From NCBI GenBank assembly GCA_014236755.1, contig JACCKY010000004.1, forward strand, positions 1 through 64,000: DNA of 64,000 nucleotides. The letters are read 5' to 3'. Each line of letters begins with the position of its first letter. Within the stretch, counting starts at the first letter, position 1. The DNA is from Candidatus Petromonas tenebris. Its GTDB lineage: Bacteria; Bacillota; Clostridia; Peptostreptococcales; Caminicellaceae. This document shows positions 46,353 through 56,244 of the stretch, piece after piece. The notes under the pieces are model-generated. The model saw only the letters and a list, made by a program, of their open reading frames with translations. It ran no database searches and was not told the DNA's origin. The position numbers and the translations under genes were made by a program.

Positions 46353-46490
46353 ATGGAAGATAAAATGTATTTTTTAGGACTTCCTTTTAAAACATGGTTG
46401 ATTGTTGGAGGTTTATTTGTATTGTCAGTATTATCTCCTGCAATTACAGCTATTATTTTAAGTCTTAGAAAGGATTCAAAAAATGAATAA
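46353..46490 (+). CDS. Symporter small accessory protein (45 residues)
   Basis: A one-helix protein of 45 residues (GLPFKTWLIVGGLFVLSVLS, then PAITAIILSLRK). It ends eight bases inside the next gene (ATGAATAA), so the two are translationally coupled. Small one-helix proteins of this kind regularly precede sodium:solute symporters in Firmicutes and are believed to assist the transporter. CGGAGTGAAA is the likely ribosome-binding site. Confidence 0.75.
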   Translation: MEDKMYFLGLPFKTWLIVGGLFVLSVLSPAITAIILSLRKDSKNE

Positions 46491-47970
46491 ATCAATAATG
46501 TACTTAGTGTATTTTACTTTATATACCCTTATGTTACTCTGGTTTGGAAAAAGTGGATTTAAAAAGACAAACAATATCAGGGATTTCTTTGTTGCCGAAA
46601 ACAGCCTTGGACTAGCTGCGAGTGTTTTTACGTTTACTGCAACATGGTTCAGTTCCGCATCGATGCAGGGACTTACCGGAACATTGTTTGCCTATGGATA
46701 TTCTGCTGTATTGTACTCTGTTATTGGATGGTTTTTTGGAGCTGCCCTGTTAGTAGTTATGGCGGACAAACTAAAATATTATGATATTTTAACCGTACCG
46801 GAGTATTTCAAATACAGATATGATAGCAAATATATGCAGGCTCTTGGGGGATTAGTAATTGTGCTAAGTTATATTTTTTATATCATAATACAGATAAGAG
46901 GTTTTGGTATTGTTATGTCAGAGCTTTTAGACATACATTATAGCATATCTATATTCTTGGTGTACCTATTTATTGTATATACTACCTTTGGAGGATTGTA
47001 TTCAGTTGCTAAGACAGATGGATTAAATTTTGTCTTAATATTAATAGGGACGGTTTTTGCTACTTTTATGATATTAAAGGATGTAGGAGGAATAACACTT
47101 ATGCATAAAAAGGCCGCAATTATAGCTACAAAACCCTTTCCAAATTTCCCCTATAAAACTATTGAAGGGGGTCTTCTTGACCCCTTTGCTAATGGCCTCC
47201 AACCTCCTATGATTATGATCACAGCCTTTTTTGGATGGGGATTGGGGTTGGCGTCTAACCCTCAATATGCCCTAAGAATAATTTCAGCAAAGAATAAAAA
47301 AGTTTCAATCAAGATGATATGCTTATCTGTATTTATATTATCTATTATATATGTCAATATATTTATAATAGGTATAGGTTCAAGGGTGTTAGCTCCAACG
47401 GTAGAAAATATAAGCTCTGTTGATGAAATATTCCCCTACATTATAAACAATGTAATATATTCTAAATTAAGCGGACTTATTTTAATAAGCATTGCTGCGG
47501 CAGCTATTTCTACTGCCAACTCTCAACTTCTCATACTGGCTAGTGGTTTTAGTTATGATATATATAAAAATTTAATAAATCCAGAAATTGATGAAGAAAA
47601 GTTTTTAAATCTAAATAGATTACTAATATTTATTGCTGGAACGATTTCTCTCATTATGTCAATTAAGCCCCCCAGCAGTTTACTAGTTTTTGGGGCGTAT
47701 ATATGGGGAATATTTTCTGTAACATTTCTAATTCCCTTATATGGAGGGCTATATTGGAAAAAAGCAACAAAGGAAGGAGCTATATATTCCTTTGTCGGAG
47801 GAGCATTAACTATGATTTTATTTTACTTAATAAATAAATATAAGTATCTTTCATTAGATATAAGTATCAATAGAATGATTCACCCTGCATTTCCCGGCTT
47901 TTTAGCATCCTTGATTCTATTTTATGTTATAAGTAAAATTACCTATAAAAAGGAAAGCGATCTAAAATGA
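46483..47970 (+). CDS. Sodium:solute symporter (SSS family)
   Basis: A 495-residue transporter with about 13 membrane helices and the SSS signatures: FFVAENSLGLAASVFTFTATW near the start, GGLYSVAKTDGLNFVLILIG, and SIAAAAISTANSQLLILASG, which carries the Na2-site Ser/Thr. Family substrates include pantothenate, proline and other carboxylates; which one cannot be read here. It overlaps its small partner upstream and the kinase downstream (4 bases). Confidence 0.9.
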   Translation: MNKSIMYLVYFTLYTLMLLWFGKSGFKKTNNIRDFFVAENSLGLAASVFTFTATWFSSASMQGLTGTLFAYGYSAVLYSVIGWFFGAALLVVMADKLKYYDILTVPEYFKYRYDSKYMQALGGLVIVLSYIFYIIIQIRGFGIVMSELLDIHYSISIFLVYLFIVYTTFGGLYSVAKTDGLNFVLILIGTVFATFMILKDVGGITLMHKKAAIIATKPFPNFPYKTIEGGLLDPFANGLQPPMIMITAFFGWGLGLASNPQYALRIISAKNKKVSIKMICLSVFILSIIYVNIFIIGIGSRVLAPTVENISSVDEIFPYIINNVIYSKLSGLILISIAAAAISTANSQLLILASGFSYDIYKNLINPEIDEEKFLNLNRLLIFIAGTISLIMSIKPPSSLLVFGAYIWGIFSVTFLIPLYGGLYWKKATKEGAIYSFVGGALTMILFYLINKYKYLSLDISINRMIHPAFPGFLASLILFYVISKITYKKESDLK

Positions 47971-49754
47971 AGATGGATATTGAAAATAAAATATTAATTC
48001 CATTTCTGATTTTAGTAATATTGCCAATAATTATTTTGGGAATAGTGTCTTACTGGGGTGGATATCAGATATTAGTGAATAACCAGATTGAAAGTTATAC
48101 GACCAGATTAAATGATATAGTATCATTTATTGATATATTAAACGAGCAGGTTGAAAAAAATTTTATTACTCGTGAAGATGCAAAAACAAAAATAATTAAT
48201 CACTCTCAAATAGTAGGAAAGAAGGACCTATTTATAATTGAAGGGAATAAATTAGTTTTTGATAATTTTAATAACAAGACATATTTACCGAAGGAGCTAA
48301 TAAATAAAATCACAGAAAAAAAAGAGGGTACAATCAAAAATAAAGATATAATTGTTATTTTAGATAATTATAATAAATGGGACTGGATCATAGGATATAA
48401 GGTAGCTAAGAATAAATTTACAGAGGATTTACTTGGAATTCAAAAATATACACTTCTTGTTGCAATAATCTTTTTAATATTTTCAGTTGAATCAACTATA
48501 TTAGTTGCTCATAATATTTCAAAACCTATAAGATCTCTGGCAGACAGATGCAACAATATATCCCTTGGAAACTTCAAAGGGAAGATACATATCCAAAGGC
48601 GAGATGAAATAGGTATACTAGCAAATGCATTTAACAACATGCTGGACAAACTTCAGAATAGCACTGATAAACTGATAGAAATGAAAAAGTTCAATGAGGA
48701 TATTCTTAGGAATATTTCTACTGGAATAATTACAACTGATAAAGAAGGAAATATAAAGCTAATTAACGAAGCAGCAATAAAAATATTAGGGTATAAAGTG
48801 AAATGGCCTAACAAATCGGATTATATAATAAAAACTTTATTAAATCAGTTAAAGACTACTATTGACACACAAAGAACAATACATAACATGTATGATTTTA
48901 AAAAAGAAAATAAGAGTAAAATGTATTTAGATGTGACAACTTCATTGCTAAAAACTGAGGAAGGTTATATCAATGGAGCTATCTGTAACTTTAATGATAT
49001 AACCGAGAGGAAAAAAATTGAAAATAGAATGGAAAGGATGAATAGACTAGCTTCTCTAGGACAACTGGCTGCTGGCCTTGCCCATGAAATTAGGAATCCA
49101 TTGGCTGGTATGAAGACAAGTGTACAGGTTTTAAAAAACAGATTAAAAAAAACTGTTTCTGAATCAACATTGGAGTTGTTTAGTGGTATACTTTATGAAA
49201 TAGACAGGTTGAATAATCTAATAACAGAATTATTGGACTTTGCTAAACCTCATTTTCCAAAATGTGAAGTAGTCAATATTATGGAGATACTAAAGAGAGC
49301 CTTAGATTTAACGAGAAAGGCCATGGATGAAAAAAGTATAAAGACTGATATTATGGTAAAGGCTACAGATTTAATAGTCTTTGTTGACAAGGCTCAAATT
49401 GAACAGGTATTTTTAAATATTATAACTAATGCAGTAAGAGCCATGGATTTGCAAGGAACTTTAAATATAATAATCGATGACCATTATGATCAAAAGAATG
49501 ATTTTTTAATCATAGAGTTTAGGGATAATGGCTGCGGAATTAATCAAGAGAATATCGAAAAAATATTTGATCCTTTCTTTACTACTGATTCACAGGGGAC
49601 TGGATTAGGGCTATCAGTTGTTCATAATCTGATAGCAGAGAATAATGGAGAAATCGAAGTGGAGAGCTCTGTAGGCGTAGGAACATCTTTTAAAATAAAA
49701 CTTCCGATGAGTGTAGGTGGACTGTATGAAGAAAAAAATACTTATAATAGATGA
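47967..49754 (+). CDS. Sensor histidine kinase (HAMP-PAS-HisKA-HATPase)
   Basis: A 595-residue kinase with two membrane helices (about 12-32 and 156-180), an extracytoplasmic sensor of ~120 residues, HAMP, a PAS domain (about 245-350), the phospho-His in LAAGLAHEIRNPLAGMKTS and a GHKL ATPase with NIITNAVRAM, DNGCGI and GTGLGLSVVHNL. This is the NtrB-like type that pairs with sigma-54 activators. It overlaps the symporter gene and the regulator gene (29 bases). Confidence 0.9.
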   Translation: MKMDIENKILIPFLILVILPIIILGIVSYWGGYQILVNNQIESYTTRLNDIVSFIDILNEQVEKNFITREDAKTKIINHSQIVGKKDLFIIEGNKLVFDNFNNKTYLPKELINKITEKKEGTIKNKDIIVILDNYNKWDWIIGYKVAKNKFTEDLLGIQKYTLLVAIIFLIFSVESTILVAHNISKPIRSLADRCNNISLGNFKGKIHIQRRDEIGILANAFNNMLDKLQNSTDKLIEMKKFNEDILRNISTGIITTDKEGNIKLINEAAIKILGYKVKWPNKSDYIIKTLLNQLKTTIDTQRTIHNMYDFKKENKSKMYLDVTTSLLKTEEGYINGAICNFNDITERKKIENRMERMNRLASLGQLAAGLAHEIRNPLAGMKTSVQVLKNRLKKTVSESTLELFSGILYEIDRLNNLITELLDFAKPHFPKCEVVNIMEILKRALDLTRKAMDEKSIKTDIMVKATDLIVFVDKAQIEQVFLNIITNAVRAMDLQGTLNIIIDDHYDQKNDFLIIEFRDNGCGINQENIEKIFDPFFTTDSQGTGLGLSVVHNLIAENNGEIEVESSVGVGTSFKIKLPMSVGGLYEEKNTYNR

Positions 49755-51117
49755 TGAAAAAATCATCTGTATGTCTTTAAAAGAAGGACTAACAGATTTG
49801 GGTTATTCGGTAGATACTGCCTTAAATGCGGCAGGAGGGCTTAATAAAGTTATTGGATTTAAGCCCCACGTTATATTTCTTGATATGAGATTATCAGAAG
49901 AAAGCGGACTGGAGCTTATAAAAAAAATTAAGGAAATTGACAAGGATAATGAGGTAGTGATTATGACAGCCTACGGAGATGTAGAAACAGCAGTTACTGC
50001 CATGAAAAATGGTGCATTTGATTATATAAAAAAGCCCTTTGATCTTGAAGAAATAGATATAACTATTTCAAAGGCGTTTGAAAATTTAAATATGAAAAAG
50101 AAGCTTTATTTACTTGAAAAAGAAAAAGAGGTTAACAATGAAAGTATAATAGGAAATCACCCTAGTATGAATGAAATTTTAAAAAAAATAGATATTTTGG
50201 CTGCTAATGATAAAGTAACGGTATTGATAAGAGGAGAAACGGGAACTGGTAAGGAGCTGGTAGCGGAAGCCATACATAAAGGTAGCATCAGGAGAGATGC
50301 ACCTATGCTTAAAATAAATTGTGGAGCAATACCCCAGCAACTTGTAGAGAGTGAATTGTTTGGATTTGAAAAAAATGCCTTTACGGGTGCAAAATCTAGA
50401 AAAAAGGGTCTATTTGAAATTGCTGATGGAGGAACAATTTTTTTAGACGAGATAGGAGAAATTTCTATAGATGTACAGACAAAACTTTTAAGATTTCTCG
50501 AAGAAAGAAAATTTAAAAGAGTAGGCGGCCTTAAGGACATAGAGGTGGATGTTAGGATTATTGCGGCCACAAATAAGGATTTAGAAGAAGCTGTGAAAAC
50601 AAAGGAGTTTAGACAGGATTTATATTACAGGCTAAATGTAGTTCCAATAAATCTGCCGCCCCTTAGAAATAGAGGCACGGATATTCTGTTGCTTGCAGAT
50701 TATTATCTAGATAGTTTTAATAAAAAATTTAATAAAAGCATTAAAGGTTTTACAAAAGAAGCTAAAAATAAACTGCTTGTTTATAGTTGGCCGGGAAATA
50801 TAAGAGAATTGAAAAATATTATTGAGAGAATTGTAATTTTACACAAGAAAAAATATATAGATTTTTATCATATACCAATAGAAATTAATAGTAAGAATGA
50901 GAATAAAAAAATTAATGTAGCCGATAAAGATCATATTGAGAAAAAAATTGTAGCTGGTAATTTTTCGTTAGAAGCTGAATTAGAAAGTATAGAAAGAAAA
51001 TATATAAAAATTGCTTTAGAAAAAACAAATAATAATTATACTCAAGCCTCCAAATTATTAGGGATAAGTAGATTTGCACTAAAAAGAAGGATAGAGAAAT
51101 ATTTTGAAAAACAGTGA
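49726..51117 (+). CDS. NtrC-family sigma-54-dependent response regulator
   Basis: A 463-residue activator. The receiver has ILIIDDEKI, the phospho-Asp in VIFLDMRLSEESGL and the Lys in IKKPFDLEE. The AAA+ domain has Walker A GETGTGKE, the sigma-54 contact loop KNAFTGA (first position Asn instead of Gly), GTIFLDEIGEI and R fingers. A Fis-type HTH (YTQASKLLGISRFALKRRIE) ends the protein. ATG 49726 follows AGGTGG. A consensus sigma-54 promoter 116 bases downstream of the stop, ahead of the Nramp-pxp genes, is its likely target. Confidence 0.92.
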   Translation: MKKKILIIDDEKIICMSLKEGLTDLGYSVDTALNAAGGLNKVIGFKPHVIFLDMRLSEESGLELIKKIKEIDKDNEVVIMTAYGDVETAVTAMKNGAFDYIKKPFDLEEIDITISKAFENLNMKKKLYLLEKEKEVNNESIIGNHPSMNEILKKIDILAANDKVTVLIRGETGTGKELVAEAIHKGSIRRDAPMLKINCGAIPQQLVESELFGFEKNAFTGAKSRKKGLFEIADGGTIFLDEIGEISIDVQTKLLRFLEERKFKRVGGLKDIEVDVRIIAATNKDLEEAVKTKEFRQDLYYRLNVVPINLPPLRNRGTDILLLADYYLDSFNKKFNKSIKGFTKEAKNKLLVYSWPGNIRELKNIIERIVILHKKKYIDFYHIPIEINSKNENKKINVADKDHIEKKIVAGNFSLEAELESIERKYIKIALEKTNNNYTQASKLLGISRFALKRRIEKYFEKQ

Positions 51118-51156
51118 GCGATTTTGCACGTTTGTTGCAAAACCGCTCATTTTTAT
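51116..51156 (+). terminator. Rho-independent terminator after the NtrC-type gene
   Basis: GAGCG-A-TTTTGC pairs with GCAAAA-C-CGCTC around a 9-base loop and is followed by ATTTTTATT. The stem begins within the stop codon. Confidence 0.85.
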
Positions 51157-51232: not shown

Positions 51233-51249
51233 TTGGCATACTTCTTGCT
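51233..51249 (+). promoter_or_regulatory. Sigma-54 (-24/-12) promoter of the Nramp-DUF1445-pxp operon
   Basis: TTGGCATACTTCTTGCT matches the consensus TTGGCAC-N5-TTGCW at all key positions, with GG at 51235-51236 and GC at 51247-51248 at the required spacing. Transcription would start near 51260, about 40 bases ahead of the Nramp-like gene. Confidence 0.85.
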
Positions 51250-51299: not shown

Positions 51300-52538
51300 A
51301 TGGAACAAACAACTAGAAAAAAGAAAGGATTTGTAGAAAAACTTAAAACAATAGGTCCGGCGGCCATTGTTACCGCAGCGTTTATTGGCCCTGGAACGGT
51401 AACAACTTCTTCATTGGCAGGAGCAAACTTTGGTTATGCGCTTATTTGGGCTATGGTATTTTCGATTTTTGCAACAATTGTACTACAGGAGATGTCTGCC
51501 AGATTGGGTATTGTCAGCAGAATGGGACTTGGGGAGGCATTAAGGGAACAATTCGAAAATCCCATTGCAAAATATACAAGCATAATCTTGGTAATATCAG
51601 CCATAGGCATAGGTTGTGCAGCATATGAAACGGGTAACATACTTGGAGGAGCCTTAGGTCTTGAAGCTATAACGGGAATACCGATGAATGTTTGGGGACC
51701 ATTAATGGGAATAGGAGCATTTTTATTACTATATACGGGCAGTTATAAAATTGTTGAGAAAGTTCTTGTTGGACTAGTAGTGCTTATGAGTCTAACGTTT
51801 ATAACTACTGCAGTTATCATATCACCTAATTGGGGAGCAATTATTAAGGGTATGTTTATTCCTTCAATTCCAAAGGGCTCAGTATTTATAGTTATGGCTT
51901 TAGTAGGAACTACTGTTGTTCCATATAATCTTTTTTTACACGCATCGGCTGTACAGGAAAGATGGAAGGACGCTAGTGGGTTAAAGGAATCAAGAAGTGA
52001 TATACTTGTTTCAATAATACTTGGTGGACTTATATCTATATCAATAATCATTACTGCATCTGCTGCATTTTTTGGGACAGGATTAGCAATTAAAAGTGCC
52101 GGCGATATGGCGAAGCAGTTGGAGCCTTTACTGGGCCGGTGGGCAAAATATTTCTTTGCATTTGGGCTATTTTCAGCTGGTTTATCTTCATCTATAACTG
52201 CACCTTTAGCTGCTGCCTATGCTACAGCAGGAGCATTAGGATGGAAAAGAGATTTGAAGGATAAGAAGTTTAAAACAATATGGATGATTGTATTAGCAGT
52301 GGGTATAGTATTTTCAGGAATAGGGCTAAAGCCTATATCAGCTATTATTTTTGCTCAGGCTGCAAATGGTATACTACTTCCTATAGTTGCAATATTCTTA
52401 TTATATGTAATGAATAACAAGCAAAGACTTGGCCAATACGTCAATAGGGGAATTACTAATGTGTTAGGCGGAATAGTTGTACTCGTGGCAATTGGATTGG
52501 GATTAAGAAGCATTCTTAAGGTATTGGGTATAATGTAA
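51300..52538 (+). CDS. Nramp-family transporter lacking the metal-binding motifs
   Basis: A 412-residue Nramp-fold protein with 11 predicted helices. In TM1 the metal-binding D-P-G-N is replaced by G30-P31-G32-T33, and in TM6 the M-P-H-N is replaced by V207-P208-Y209-N210, so all three key side chains of divalent-metal transport are missing. It opens a sigma-54 operon with DUF1445 and 5-oxoprolinase. A role in taking up 5-oxoproline or a related amino acid is inferred from this setting. Automatic annotation as a metal transporter would be doubtful. AAAGGAGG precedes the ATG. Confidence 0.87.
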   Translation: MEQTTRKKKGFVEKLKTIGPAAIVTAAFIGPGTVTTSSLAGANFGYALIWAMVFSIFATIVLQEMSARLGIVSRMGLGEALREQFENPIAKYTSIILVISAIGIGCAAYETGNILGGALGLEAITGIPMNVWGPLMGIGAFLLLYTGSYKIVEKVLVGLVVLMSLTFITTAVIISPNWGAIIKGMFIPSIPKGSVFIVMALVGTTVVPYNLFLHASAVQERWKDASGLKESRSDILVSIILGGLISISIIITASAAFFGTGLAIKSAGDMAKQLEPLLGRWAKYFFAFGLFSAGLSSSITAPLAAAYATAGALGWKRDLKDKKFKTIWMIVLAVGIVFSGIGLKPISAIIFAQAANGILLPIVAIFLLYVMNNKQRLGQYVNRGITNVLGGIVVLVAIGLGLRSILKVLGIM

Positions 52539-52609: not shown

Positions 52610-53401
52610 ATGAAAAATCTTACCTTAGCTAAACCTTTTGAAGTGCGTGAATATATAAGAAAAGGAGAAATTCAAAAACCTACGGCTGGGATGTGTAGAG
52701 GTTATGCTCAGGGAAATCTAGTGGTTTTACCAAAAGAGTTAGCGTATGATTTCTTATTGTTTGCCCAGAGGAATCCTAAACCTTGTCCTGTTTTGGAAGT
52801 TACGGATGTAGGATCTACAGAGTTTAAAACTATTGCACCAGGTTCTAATATAACTACAGATATTCCTAAATATAGGGTTTATAAAAAGGGAATTTTAGAA
52901 GGAGAGTATACGGATATAAAGTCCTTTTGGAAAGAAGACTTTATAGCTTTTATGCTAGGCTGCAGCTTTACTTTTGAGTCAGCTTTAATTGAAGAAGGAA
53001 TTGGAGTAAGACATATAGAATGTGGAAGTAATGTACCTATGTATATTACAAATATAAAATGTAAACCGGCAGGTAAATTTTTTGGACCAATGGTAGTAAG
53101 CATGAGACCTATACCGTTAAATAAAGTAGTTAAGGTAGTTCAGATAACCTCTAGATATCCAGATGTCCATGGAGCTCCGGTACATATAGGTGACCCTGGA
53201 CTGATAGGAATAAAGGACATAGACATACCTGACTTTGGAGATCCAGTGGAAATAAAGGATGATGAAATTCCTGTGTTTTGGGCATGTGGAGTAACGCCTC
53301 AAGCGGTGGCAATGAAAGTAAAGCCGGAAATAATGATTACCCATGCTCCAGGACATATGTTTATTACAGATATAAAAAACCATGAATTGGCAGTATTTTA
53401 A
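52610..53401 (+). CDS. DUF1445 (UPF0317) putative hydro-lyase/D-glutamate cyclase-like protein
   Basis: A 263-residue protein. The family segments GMCRGYAQGNLVVLPKELA, FMLGCSFTFESAL, SRYPDVHGAPVHIGDP, FWACGVTPQ and ITHAPGHMFITD are all present. The same domain is found in mammalian DGLUCY, which converts D-glutamate to 5-oxo-D-proline, although that activity may need its other domain. It lies between the transporter and pxpA, and may supply or equilibrate 5-oxoproline. AGGAGCGAG precedes the ATG. Confidence 0.88.
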   Translation: MKNLTLAKPFEVREYIRKGEIQKPTAGMCRGYAQGNLVVLPKELAYDFLLFAQRNPKPCPVLEVTDVGSTEFKTIAPGSNITTDIPKYRVYKKGILEGEYTDIKSFWKEDFIAFMLGCSFTFESALIEEGIGVRHIECGSNVPMYITNIKCKPAGKFFGPMVVSMRPIPLNKVVKVVQITSRYPDVHGAPVHIGDPGLIGIKDIDIPDFGDPVEIKDDEIPVFWACGVTPQAVAMKVKPEIMITHAPGHMFITDIKNHELAVF

Positions 53402-53426: not shown

Positions 53427-53530
53427 ATTATTTATAGCCTATGAGAATTCTTCAAGTTGATGTGAAGTGTGTTGTTTAATTTACAAAAATAAGCGAAAAA
53501 ACATATATTGCAAAATTGCTTAGAAGCGAA
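53427..53530. mobile_element. MITE-like element remnant, copy f
   Basis: TTTATAGCCTATGAGAATTC, GTGTTGTTTAATTTAC and AAGCGAAAAAACA align in order with copy b (AGCCTATAAGAATCT, CTGTTTTCC, CTGAAAAAACAGC) but are heavily degenerated. It fills the gap upstream of pxpA. Confidence 0.4.
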
Positions 53531-53552
53531 GGATGGAGAAGGGAGAATGAAA

Positions 53553-54323
53553 ATGTATTCAGTTGATTTGAATTGTGACCTTGGAGAAAGCTTTGGTAGA
53601 TATACTCTTGGAAATGATGAAAGGGTTTTAGACTATGTTACTTCGGTAAATATTGCCTGTGGTTTTCACGCTGGTGATCCTGTAGTCATGGAAAAAACAG
53701 TTAAAATGGCCTTGGAGAAGGGAGTTGCCATAGGAGCCCATCCGGGATATCCCGACCTAATGGGGTTTGGAAGAAGAAATATGGACATTAGTATTGAAGA
53801 AGCAAGGGCGTATATTATTTATCAGGTTGGAGCACTAAAATCCTTTGTAGAAGCATACGGAGGGAAGCTTCAGCATGTAAAACCACATGGAGCATTATAT
53901 AATACAGCTGCAAAGAACTATGAGCTTGCTAGGGCCTTAACAGAAGCTGTATATGATATTGATAGTGAACTTATCTTTGTGGCATTATCAAATTCAATAG
54001 CGGTTAAGGCTGCAAAGGATACAGGTCTTAGAGTTGCCAATGAAGTATTTGCCGACAGAGCATATAATAAGGATGGAACGTTGGTGTCTAGAAAAGTTGA
54101 GGGTTCAGTTATACATGACACCGAGTTATGCAAACATAGGGTTCAGCGTATGATAAAGGAAGGAAAAGTGGCTACTATGTACGGTGAAGATATAGATATA
54201 AAGGCAGACAGTATATGTATTCACGGCGATAATGTCAAGGCACTGGAATTTGCTCAAGGCTTAAGAGAAAGTCTTCTGAAAGAAGAAATAAAACTTGAAC
54301 CCCTAGATGCTAAATACAAATAA
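53553..54323 (+). CDS. pxpA: 5-oxoprolinase subunit A (LamB/YcsF family)
   Basis: A 256-residue PxpA. The opening [17 protein letters not shown], then [37 protein letters not shown] and SICIHGDN are the family signatures, with metal-site His and Asp residues. With PxpB and PxpC it converts 5-oxoproline to glutamate using ATP. ATG 53553 suits the AAGGGAG site and the family N terminus; the upstream in-frame start at 53508 lies in repeat sequence. Confidence 0.94.
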
Positions 54324-54461: not shown

Positions 54462-55208
54462 ATGTACGAAAAATATAGATATTTACCATCAGGAGACAAT
54501 GGAATAATTATAGAGATAGGTAGCAAAATCTCTGAAGAGATAAATGGAAAGGTTAGGGGCTTAACTTTATGTATTGAGAATGAGAAACCGGAAGGAGTTC
54601 TGGAAATAATTCCAACATACACTTCAATCCTCATAATATACGATCCAGTAATTGTATCCTATTATGATTTATTAAAAAAACTGAAAGAAATAGAGAAGAG
54701 AATGAAGGAAATAACTCTTCCAGCTCCAGAGGTAGTTCATATACCTACCTGTTATGGAGGAGAATATGGTATGGATTTGGAGTATGTGGCAGAATATAAT
54801 GAATTAAGGCCTGAAGAAGTTATAAAGATACATAGTGAAAGGCAATATCTCGTTTATATGCTTGGGTTTACTCCCGGATTTCCCTATCTAGGTGGGATGT
54901 CAAAAAAAATTGCTACACCTCGTCTTGAATCTCCAAGGGAGAAAATCCTTGGTGGTTCAGTTGGTATAGCTGGAAACCAAACAGGTATATATCCGATTGA
55001 CAGTCCGGGAGGCTGGAGAATAATAGGCAGAACTCCATTAAATTTTTTTGACCCATCCAAAAATCCACCGGTGCTGTTAAAGGCAGGCCAATATATAAAA
55101 TTTGACCCTATTGACAAGGAAGAATATGAACTAATAAAAAAACAAGTGGAAAGAAAAGAATATACAGTCAAAAAGTCCCGATTGAAAAGGGGTGACTTCA
55201 ATGAGTAG
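54462..55208 (+). CDS. pxpB: 5-oxoprolinase subunit B (KipI family)
   Basis: A 248-residue PxpB with the KipI/allophanate hydrolase subunit 1 signatures YLPSGDNGIIIEIG, HIPTCYGGEYGMDLEYVAEY, YMLGFTPGFPYLGGM and AGNQTGIYPIDSPGGWRIIG. Together with PxpC it forms the ATP-dependent part. The 138-base gap from pxpA contains a small hairpin (CAGAT-TTTT-ATCTG). It overlaps pxpC by eight bases. Confidence 0.94.
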   Translation: MYEKYRYLPSGDNGIIIEIGSKISEEINGKVRGLTLCIENEKPEGVLEIIPTYTSILIIYDPVIVSYYDLLKKLKEIEKRMKEITLPAPEVVHIPTCYGGEYGMDLEYVAEYNELRPEEVIKIHSERQYLVYMLGFTPGFPYLGGMSKKIATPRLESPREKILGGSVGIAGNQTGIYPIDSPGGWRIIGRTPLNFFDPSKNPPVLLKAGQYIKFDPIDKEEYELIKKQVERKEYTVKKSRLKRGDFNE

Positions 55209-56244
55209 CTTAAAAATCATAAATTCTGGACTATTAACTACCATCCAGGATTATGGGAGAGTTGGATACGGTCAGTATGGAGTTCCTGCGGCAGGAGTAA
55301 TGGATAGACTGGCTATGCAATTGGCAAATATTCTTGTAGATAATGACAGGTATGAAGCCGTGCTTGAAATGACCATGATGGGACTAAGCTTTAAAGCAGA
55401 TGGGAATATGGCTATTGCCATAACTGGAGCTGATATGTTTCCAACTGTAAATGGAAAGAAAGTTAATCTGTATGAAACTATATACTTAAATAATGGTGAT
55501 ATATTAGAATGCTCTTATGCCCAAAGTGGCTGCAGAGCTTATTTAGCTGTAGCTGGAGGTTTTGATCTTCCGAAGGTTATGGGAAGTAAATCCACATATT
55601 TAAGGGGCAAAATAGGGGGATTAAATGGGAATAAGATTCAAAAAGGTGATATATTAAAAATAAATCCTAAGAACGGTAAGGAATATTTTGGGATTAGGAA
55701 AATTCCTGAGGATATGATACCTAGATACAAAAATGAAATTACGGCTAGAGTCATATTAGGACCAGAGGTTGATTATTTTACTAAGAACGGGATGGAAACT
55801 TTTCTTAGTAGCGAATATGTTTTAACTGATCAATGTGACAGAATGGGATATAGACTTGAGGGACCAAGAATTGAACATGAAAAGGGATCAGATATTATTT
55901 CAAATGGAATAAATTTCGGTGCAATTCAGATTCCCGGTCATGGATGCCCTATTATTATGATGGCAGATAGACAGACTACTGGGGGTTATACAAAAATAGC
56001 AAACGTAATAACAGTAGATTTACCCTTTCTAGCTCAATTAAAACCGGGAGATAGGGTTAAATTTGAAAAAATAGATATTGAAGAAGCCCAAAACTTGATA
56101 AAAAAGCAGGAAAAGAACTTATTGAATCTGATAAATGATTTTAAGACGAGTCTTATTAATACAGTAGGGACAATGAGAAATTTCAAAATAAATGTTAATG
56201 GCAAAAAATACAATTTATCCGTCCAAGAAATAAAAGAATCATAA
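55201..56244 (+). CDS. pxpC: 5-oxoprolinase subunit C (KipA family) with an extra C-terminal tail
   Basis: A 347-residue PxpC/KipA. It begins IINSGLLTTIQDYGRVGYGQ and shows GVPAAGVMDRLAMQLAN, AGGFD, SDRMGYRL-type (CDRMGYRLEGP) and GHGCPIIMMADRQTTGGY. It is longer than the ~310-residue E. coli protein. The last ~20 residues (MRNFKINVNGKKYNLSVQEI) look like the first strands of a biotin-carrier protein, cut short. ATG 55201 follows AAGGGGTG; last gene of the operon. Confidence 0.93.
   Translation: MSSLKIINSGLLTTIQDYGRVGYGQYGVPAAGVMDRLAMQLANILVDNDRYEAVLEMTMMGLSFKADGNMAIAITGADMFPTVNGKKVNLYETIYLNNGDILECSYAQSGCRAYLAVAGGFDLPKVMGSKSTYLRGKIGGLNGNKIQKGDILKINPKNGKEYFGIRKIPEDMIPRYKNEITARVILGPEVDYFTKNGMETFLSSEYVLTDQCDRMGYRLEGPRIEHEKGSDIISNGINFGAIQIPGHGCPIIMMADRQTTGGYTKIANVITVDLPFLAQLKPGDRVKFEKIDIEEAQNLIKKQEKNLLNLINDFKTSLINTVGTMRNFKINVNGKKYNLSVQEIKES

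Follow-up and report, generated by a model that had tools for sequence, protein, structure and literature searches.

A ligand-less Nramp-fold protein encoded with 5-oxoprolinase genes in Candidatus Petromonas tenebris is a probable 5-oxoproline importer

The Nramp-fold protein encoded at positions 51300 to 52538 of the window, the whole 64,000-nucleotide stretch of Candidatus Petromonas tenebris DNA analysed here, has lost the metal-binding residues of its family. Its sequence and gene context make it likely that this protein takes up 5-oxoproline, in the L and possibly the D form, or a very similar lactam acid, by secondary active transport. 5-Oxoproline, rather than manganese, is the most likely cargo because the metal residues are lost and because 5-oxoproline-degrading enzymes adjoin the gene in very different microbes. 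The preliminary description had proposed this cargo, and gene context now argues for it through a pxp linkage specific to the clade and two replacements of the neighbouring enzyme. The window group appears uncharacterised so far. With respect to the literature searched, assigning it a cargo from gene context and the enzyme-replacement argument are new, as are a proposed switch in TM3 and the observation that MntG and MumT lack the ligand motifs. The genes and motifs concerned are the following:

46353..46490, forward strand: single-helix ORF of 45 residues that extends into the beginning of the SSS symporter gene (translation), possibly a small accessory symporter subunit
46483..47970, forward strand: SSS-family sodium:solute symporter (PF00474, 178 bits; TIGR00813, 170.9 bits, under the model cut-off)
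47967..49754, forward strand: sensor histidine kinase with HAMP, PAS, HisKA and HATPase domains (Pfam; nearest named model AtoS, under cut-off)
49717..51117, forward strand: sigma-54-dependent response regulator with receiver, AAA+ and Fis-type HTH domains (PF00158, 238 bits; PF00072; PF02954)
51117..51149, forward strand: 14-bp inverted repeat GAGCGATTTTGCA..TGCAAAACCGCTC (sequence)
51234..51249, forward strand: sigma-54 (-24/-12) promoter motif TGGCATACTTCTTGCT, upstream of the Nramp-like gene (exact match)
51300..52538, forward strand: Nramp-fold transporter without metal ligands, 412 residues (Pfam match, AlphaFold2 model, structure matches)
51387..51398, forward strand: TM1 break G30-P-G-T33, replacing DPGN (alignments)
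51624..51638, forward strand: TM3 stretch Y109-E-T-G-N113, with N113 in place of a conserved Glu, E134 of DraNramp (alignments)
51918..51929, forward strand: TM6 break V207-P-Y209-N, replacing MPH (alignments)
52610..53401, forward strand: D-glutamate-cyclase family protein (PF07286, 231.5 bits; NF003969, 425 bits; NCBIfam 'putative hydro-lyase', YcsI/MumU)
53508..54323, forward strand: pxpA (LamB/YcsF), 5-oxoprolinase subunit (PF03746, 345 bits; NF003814)
54462..55208, forward strand: pxpB, 5-oxoprolinase subunit (TIGR00370, 220.7 bits, above cut-off)
55192..56244, forward strand: pxpC, 5-oxoprolinase subunit, overlapping pxpB (TIGR00724, 333 bits, above cut-off)

The ORF at 51300-52538, which has an ATG start and an AGGAGG ribosome-binding site, is the only Nramp-family gene of the window genome. 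Its product matches the Pfam Nramp model PF01566 with 361 bits (cut-off 29.8) over model positions 1-356 of 357. The AlphaFold2 model has 11 transmembrane segments (pLDDT 94.6, pTM 0.93) with TM1 and TM6 broken at the GPGT and VPY motifs, and its best solved matches are DraNramp, BfraNramp and EleNRMT (TM-scores of 0.81-0.86 for DraNramp and EleNRMT). TM1 reads A-F-I-G30-P-G-T33-V and TM6 reads G-T204-T-V-V207-P-Y209-N-L. Alignment to DraNramp pairs D56 with G30 and N59 with T33 in TM1, E134 with N113 in TM3, and A227 with T204, M230 with V207 and H232 with Y209 in TM6; the TM10 glutamine (Q353) and H214 alone are retained. In every one of the 57 pxp-linked clade members that cover this part the TM1 motif is GPGT, and VVPYN (or VVGYN) hardly varies across them, while the canonical homologues have D, N, M and H in 22 of 22, which rules out chance or sequencing error as the origin of the ligand loss. 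Replacement of the ligands in TM1, TM3 and TM6, together with the confident 11-helix model, thus indicates that the predicted Nramp fold is retained and the metal site gone, in agreement with the preliminary description. The change of D-P-G-N to G-P-G-T that it reported is confirmed. Its change of M-P-H-N to V-P-Y-N is real for MPH to VPY; the canonical motif is properly MPH because the fourth letter varies (V, N or A) among canonical members.

Downstream on the same strand, the Nramp-like gene is followed by PF07286, LamB_YcsF, CT_C_D and CT_A_B in this order. Matches to Pfam, TIGR and NCBIfam models identify pxpABC, which code for the ATP-dependent 5-oxoprolinase, so that the operon for 5-oxoproline breakdown announced earlier is borne out. 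Translation of pxpA may in fact begin at the ATG at 53547 or at 53553. PxpC ends (window positions 56178-56244) in FKINVNGKKYNLSVQEI, which looks like the beginning of a biotin carrier domain cut short by a stop codon. The single exact sigma-54 promoter match in the 64 kb lies at 51234-51249, between the regulator gene and the Nramp-like gene. The inverted repeat at 51117..51149 could be the terminator of the regulator gene and/or an enhancer site for the regulator. In 7 of the 8 loci that possess the symporter-kinase-regulator module, or closely match loci possessing it, a sigma-54 site lies ahead of nramp or pxp genes, compared with 1 of the 16 loci lacking the module (Fisher p 0.0002). Because the sigma-54 site tracks this module across loci, the transporter and the oxoprolinase are probably induced together. 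The inducer of the operon is presumably the substrate.

The preliminary description had proposed a survey of pxp neighbours and a phylogeny with canonical Nramps and NRMTs; both were run. The survey covered 249 genomes of the phylum, with 109 Nramp-family matches and 81 pxpB loci, linkage being defined as a position within 10 kb of pxpB. GPGT/VPYN genes adjoin pxpB in 8 of 8 cases versus 0 of 70 for the other Nramp genes above 200 bits (Fisher p 4e-11, loci taken as independent). An Nramp-family gene is carried by 29 of the 81 pxpB loci; it is of the GPGT/VPYN type in 8 and belongs to a second group lacking the ligands, described below, in 21. Scanning of named genomes yielded 586 relatives, the best 80 of which were taken for neighbourhoods and span Bacteroidota, Bacillota, Pseudomonadota, Actinomycetota and haloarchaea; a pxp gene lies within 10 kb in 48 of these best 80. 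Surveys of Gammaproteobacteria and Actinomycetes gave few members of the GPGT/VPY group. Among all fetched loci, an oxoprolinase is found within 8 kb of 69 of the 107 GPGT-class genes (56 pxp, 13 HyuAB/OPLAH) and of none of the 22 canonical and 10 NRMT genes; since the named sample is heavy in Flavobacteriaceae and near relatives, these counts do not represent independent events. The cargo differs within the GPGT-class clade, since 16 of the 107 genes adjoin an arginase-family gene and in 22, some at contig ends, neither an oxoprolinase nor an arginase-family gene is recognised nearby. A subgroup (L158-L162, L101) reads TTVVTYN in TM6, with no recognised enzyme neighbour. At L039 (8760-10031, reverse strand) a GTGT/VPYN relative has no oxoprolinase linkage and is directly followed by a DUF6282 gene.

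The GPGT-class clade is monophyletic on the tree (support 95, 77 rows) and comprises Bacteria and haloarchaea, with canonical Nramps (support 100) and NRMTs (support 100) falling outside it. In haloarchaea the Nramp-like gene is immediately followed, in the same direction, by HyuA and then HyuB, as the annotations of Haloarcula marismortui and Halocatena marina show, and Haloarcula has a glutamate dehydrogenase gene nearby. In two Bacteroidetes the downstream gene, of the same direction, codes for a single 1252-residue OPLAH-type protein with HyuAB domains. The HyuAB/OPLAH enzymes belong to Pfam families other than those of PxpABC, and the tree indicates that their linkage arose twice inside the clade. 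They are named here oxoprolinase-type enzymes, putative 5-oxoprolinases, because family models fail to separate 5-oxoprolinase from related lactamases. Conservation of the transporter while the enzyme was swapped points to a shared substrate as the link between them.

A Bacilli subclade (17 rows, support 100) has an arginase-family gene in place of the oxoprolinase, at loci that include L098, L103, L106 and L165-L174. Among solved structures this neighbour is best matched by 7esr/7oi1, whose deposited name is 'probable agmatinase 2' and which we take to be the guanidine hydrolase Sll1077 of Synechocystis. The window protein shares 54% identity with this branch of its own clade. In TM3 the arginase-linked proteins have Asp113 (16/16) and Ile or Met110 (16/16), while 70 of 71 oxoprolinase-linked members have Asn113 and 70 of 71 have Glu or Gln110. 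These sequence patterns suggest that the cargo is cationic and that specificity was switched in TM3, possibly in a single event because the change is confined to one clade. At least nine arginase-linked genomes also have a gene of the second ligand-less group, which is pxp-adjacent in the three that were read (L205, L206, L207). An Rfam search of seven loci, run to check the guanidino cargo by another route, gave no guanidine riboswitch near the arginase-linked genes.

The second pxp-linked group (L069, L070, L180-L192, L202-L211) is very divergent, reads IGPGF, FNIGN and GGTVGGY, and gives no phmmer matches to PDB sequences; its position in the tree is a long branch that is not trusted. YcsG very probably belongs to it because a protein of this type is encoded at L202, from a Bacilli genome in which the genes are ordered as in B. 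subtilis (pxpA-ycsG-ycsI-pxpB-pxpC-IclR-lipase). Simple orthology of the window protein to YcsG/PxpT is rejected, as the YcsG-order proteins form a separate group with about 22% identity to it; the YcsG and window models share 21%. PxpT of C. glutamicum (cg1142) is placed in the second group on account of its 50% identity to YcsG (PMC13274462). Its in-frame deletion abolishes growth on 5-oxoproline, a defect that is complemented, and leaves growth on glucose unaffected; its authors do not exclude metal transport (PMC13274462). Another report implicates ycsG as well in growth on 5-oxoproline, with a polarity caveat (PMC10448178). Over-expression of YcsG (MntG) raises cell Mn in B. subtilis, where a mntH mntA ycsG triple mutant was unobtainable (PMC10448178), and deletion of mumT lowers Mn in A. 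baumannii (PMC5050338). The A. baumannii record has the order LysR, Nramp-like protein, pxpA, D-glutamate-cyclase family, a PxpC-matching protein of sufficient length for a PxpB-PxpC fusion, and lastly a biotin-carboxylase-like gene; the mumR-mumTLUHC locus has been published with this gene order (PMC5050338). Its Nramp-like protein, taken as MumT, reads GPGF, VGN and GGY. MntG and MumT are thus both without metal ligands, the second-group motifs replacing them; their Mn phenotypes are real data that may be indirect or reflect an unknown site. Biotin carboxylase and biotin-carrier genes are found beside the Nramp-like gene at L212 (Moraxella osloensis plasmid pNP7-5) and at L215, whose Nramp-like protein is without Nramp metal ligands, and such genes in pxp clusters suggest a version of the pathway that includes a carboxylation. 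PxpT supplies the strongest experimental support for 5-oxoproline as cargo; the group it belongs to is only about 22% identical to the window protein.

Metal import through the canonical site is rejected on residues, since DPGN, MPH and the TM3 Glu are absent. Membership of the NRMTs is likewise rejected, the protein having G30-P-G-T33 in place of DxxG in TM1 and T204-T-V-V207 in place of TxxA/T in TM6, and the tree separating the NRMTs (100). Import of Mn2+/Mg2+ via another site, supplying cofactor to metal-using oxoprolinases or arginase-family hydrolases, would account for the Mn phenotypes of the pxp-linked relatives YcsG (PMC10448178) and MumT (PMC5050338); it also agrees with the transport of Mn2+ by EcoDMT with its site mutated towards NRMT (PMC8806188) and with the absence of canonical MntH from the window genome. 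We find this unlikely, as none of Asp, Asn, Met, His and the TM3 Glu remains, whereas NRMT sites retain the Asp and loss of the Asp or of the TM3 Glu abolishes metal transport by BfraNramp (PMC12873925). Moreover, PxpT deletion is harmless for growth on glucose (PMC13274462), and the window genome has another candidate metal route in the form of one ZnuA-type metal-binding ABC component.

The SSS symporter could instead carry 5-oxoproline, leaving to the Nramp-like protein the transport of D-glutamate, 5-oxo-D-proline or pyroglutamyl peptides, or export of a product. Recurrence of the SSS, kinase and regulator genes with pxp (L032, L034, L037, L070, L095, L191) and the D-glutamate-cyclase-family gene in the operon fit such a division of labour. 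It is nevertheless unlikely, because among the best 80 of 586 relatives the SSS gene is found in 1 and the D-glutamate-cyclase gene in 2, against pxp in 48, and because haloarchaeal/OPLAH loci have the Nramp-like gene directly 5' of the oxoprolinase with no SSS match. Positioning of the Nramp-like gene between the kinase and regulator genes at L034 and L037 could reflect a transport-dead sensor (transceptor) of the two-component system; this is scarcely credible given that such kinase and regulator genes are missing from most linked loci and that the helix breaks relevant to transport are conserved.

We favour import of 5-oxoproline, which could proceed as follows. The LeuT/Nramp fold would accommodate an organic solute at the position of the Nramp metal site, in a polar but uncharged pocket that the broken TM1 (GPGT), TM3 (N113) and TM6 (T204-T-V-V-P-Y209-N) would form around the lactam and carboxylate groups. 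Candidate contacts to 5-oxoproline are the TM1 break with its lining of glycines, N113, T204-T205 and Y209. Import would follow a LeuT-type rocking-bundle movement, presumably coupled to H+ or Na+, and PxpABC would then open the imported 5-oxoproline to L-glutamate with expenditure of ATP. The SSS protein, the histidine kinase and the sigma-54 activator probably sense the substrate, and the activated regulator would switch on the nramp-DGC-pxpABC operon at the promoter at 51234.

A role in 5-oxoproline uptake is not new in principle, as the distant pxp-linked YcsG and PxpT are already implicated in it. The preliminary description considered this role unusual for the Nramp family; it is less new than supposed, PxpT being already needed on 5-oxoproline (PMC13274462). 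A broader reading is that the ligand-less Nramp branches are organic-solute carriers, the deeply diverged GPGT/VPY and GPGF/GGY groups both serving 5-oxoproline and the guanidino subclade having arisen by TM3 changes of E/Q110 to Ile/Met and of N113 to Asp, metal transport being one derived use of the fold. MntG (YcsG) and MumT would then be 5-oxoproline carriers with indirect Mn phenotypes, and the 'manganese and urea' operon of A. baumannii would be a 5-oxoprolinase operon. We put this forward tentatively, its guanidino and MntG/MumT corollaries included, as possible rather than probable. The database label of these proteins is 'divalent metal transporter', on which metal-homeostasis studies have relied. 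If they are 5-oxoproline carriers, some of the Nramp family would have to be annotated anew, and an importer would be assigned to a nutrient route that is widespread in Bacteria and haloarchaea. How a metal site and an organic-acid site are exchanged within one fold could then also be studied in this family, because a few positions of TM1, TM3 and TM6 track the neighbouring enzyme.

Comparison with known systems places the window protein closest in context to PxpT, YcsG (MntG) and C. difficile PxpG, which also have the PF01566 fold, are encoded with pxpABC and are devoid of DPGN/MPH. They have in common with it GPG in TM1, G-N in TM3, Tyr in TM6 and N-G in TM10; the PxpT/YcsG group reads GPGF in TM1 and GGTVGGY in TM6, whereas the window protein has GPGT and GTTVVPY. 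Ligand-less Nramp relatives are termed 'orphan outgroup' or 'Nramp-related' groups in two papers (PMC9606685, PMC12873925). The BfraNramp preprint presents Nramp-related groups as mostly uncharacterised, save NRMT and the MntG group (PMC12873925), and the accessible sections of that preprint and of Cellier's paper assign no cargo or operon to the 'orphan outgroup' or G-motif groups (PMC10606218, PMC12873925). The Slc11 'orphan outgroup' of Cellier has Y and N in TM3, V and Y in TM6 and an Ala to Thr change in TM6 (PMC10606218), corresponding to Y109, N113, V207, Y209 and T204 of the window protein. The window clade has three invariant Gly in TM3 (105, 112, 116) and the outgroup is described with four, a comparison made by description only. 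NRMTs (EleNRMT, 7qia) resemble the window protein in fold (TM-score 0.86, 30% identity) and in the absence of both Met and His, but they keep the TM1 Asp and the TM3 Glu/Asp (10/10), have no oxoprolinase linkage and form a separate clade. Canonical Nramp/MntH proteins (DraNramp, BfraNramp) share the fold and the TM10 Gln; unlike the window protein they possess the metal and proton residues, belong to a separate clade and were never seen linked to pxp in the surveys. Outside the Nramp family, the top solved match by E-value is Mhp1 (4d1a), a member of another family with a TM-score of 0.62, in the usual LeuT-fold range. Mhp1 is a hydantoin transporter and carries a five-membered cyclic amide.
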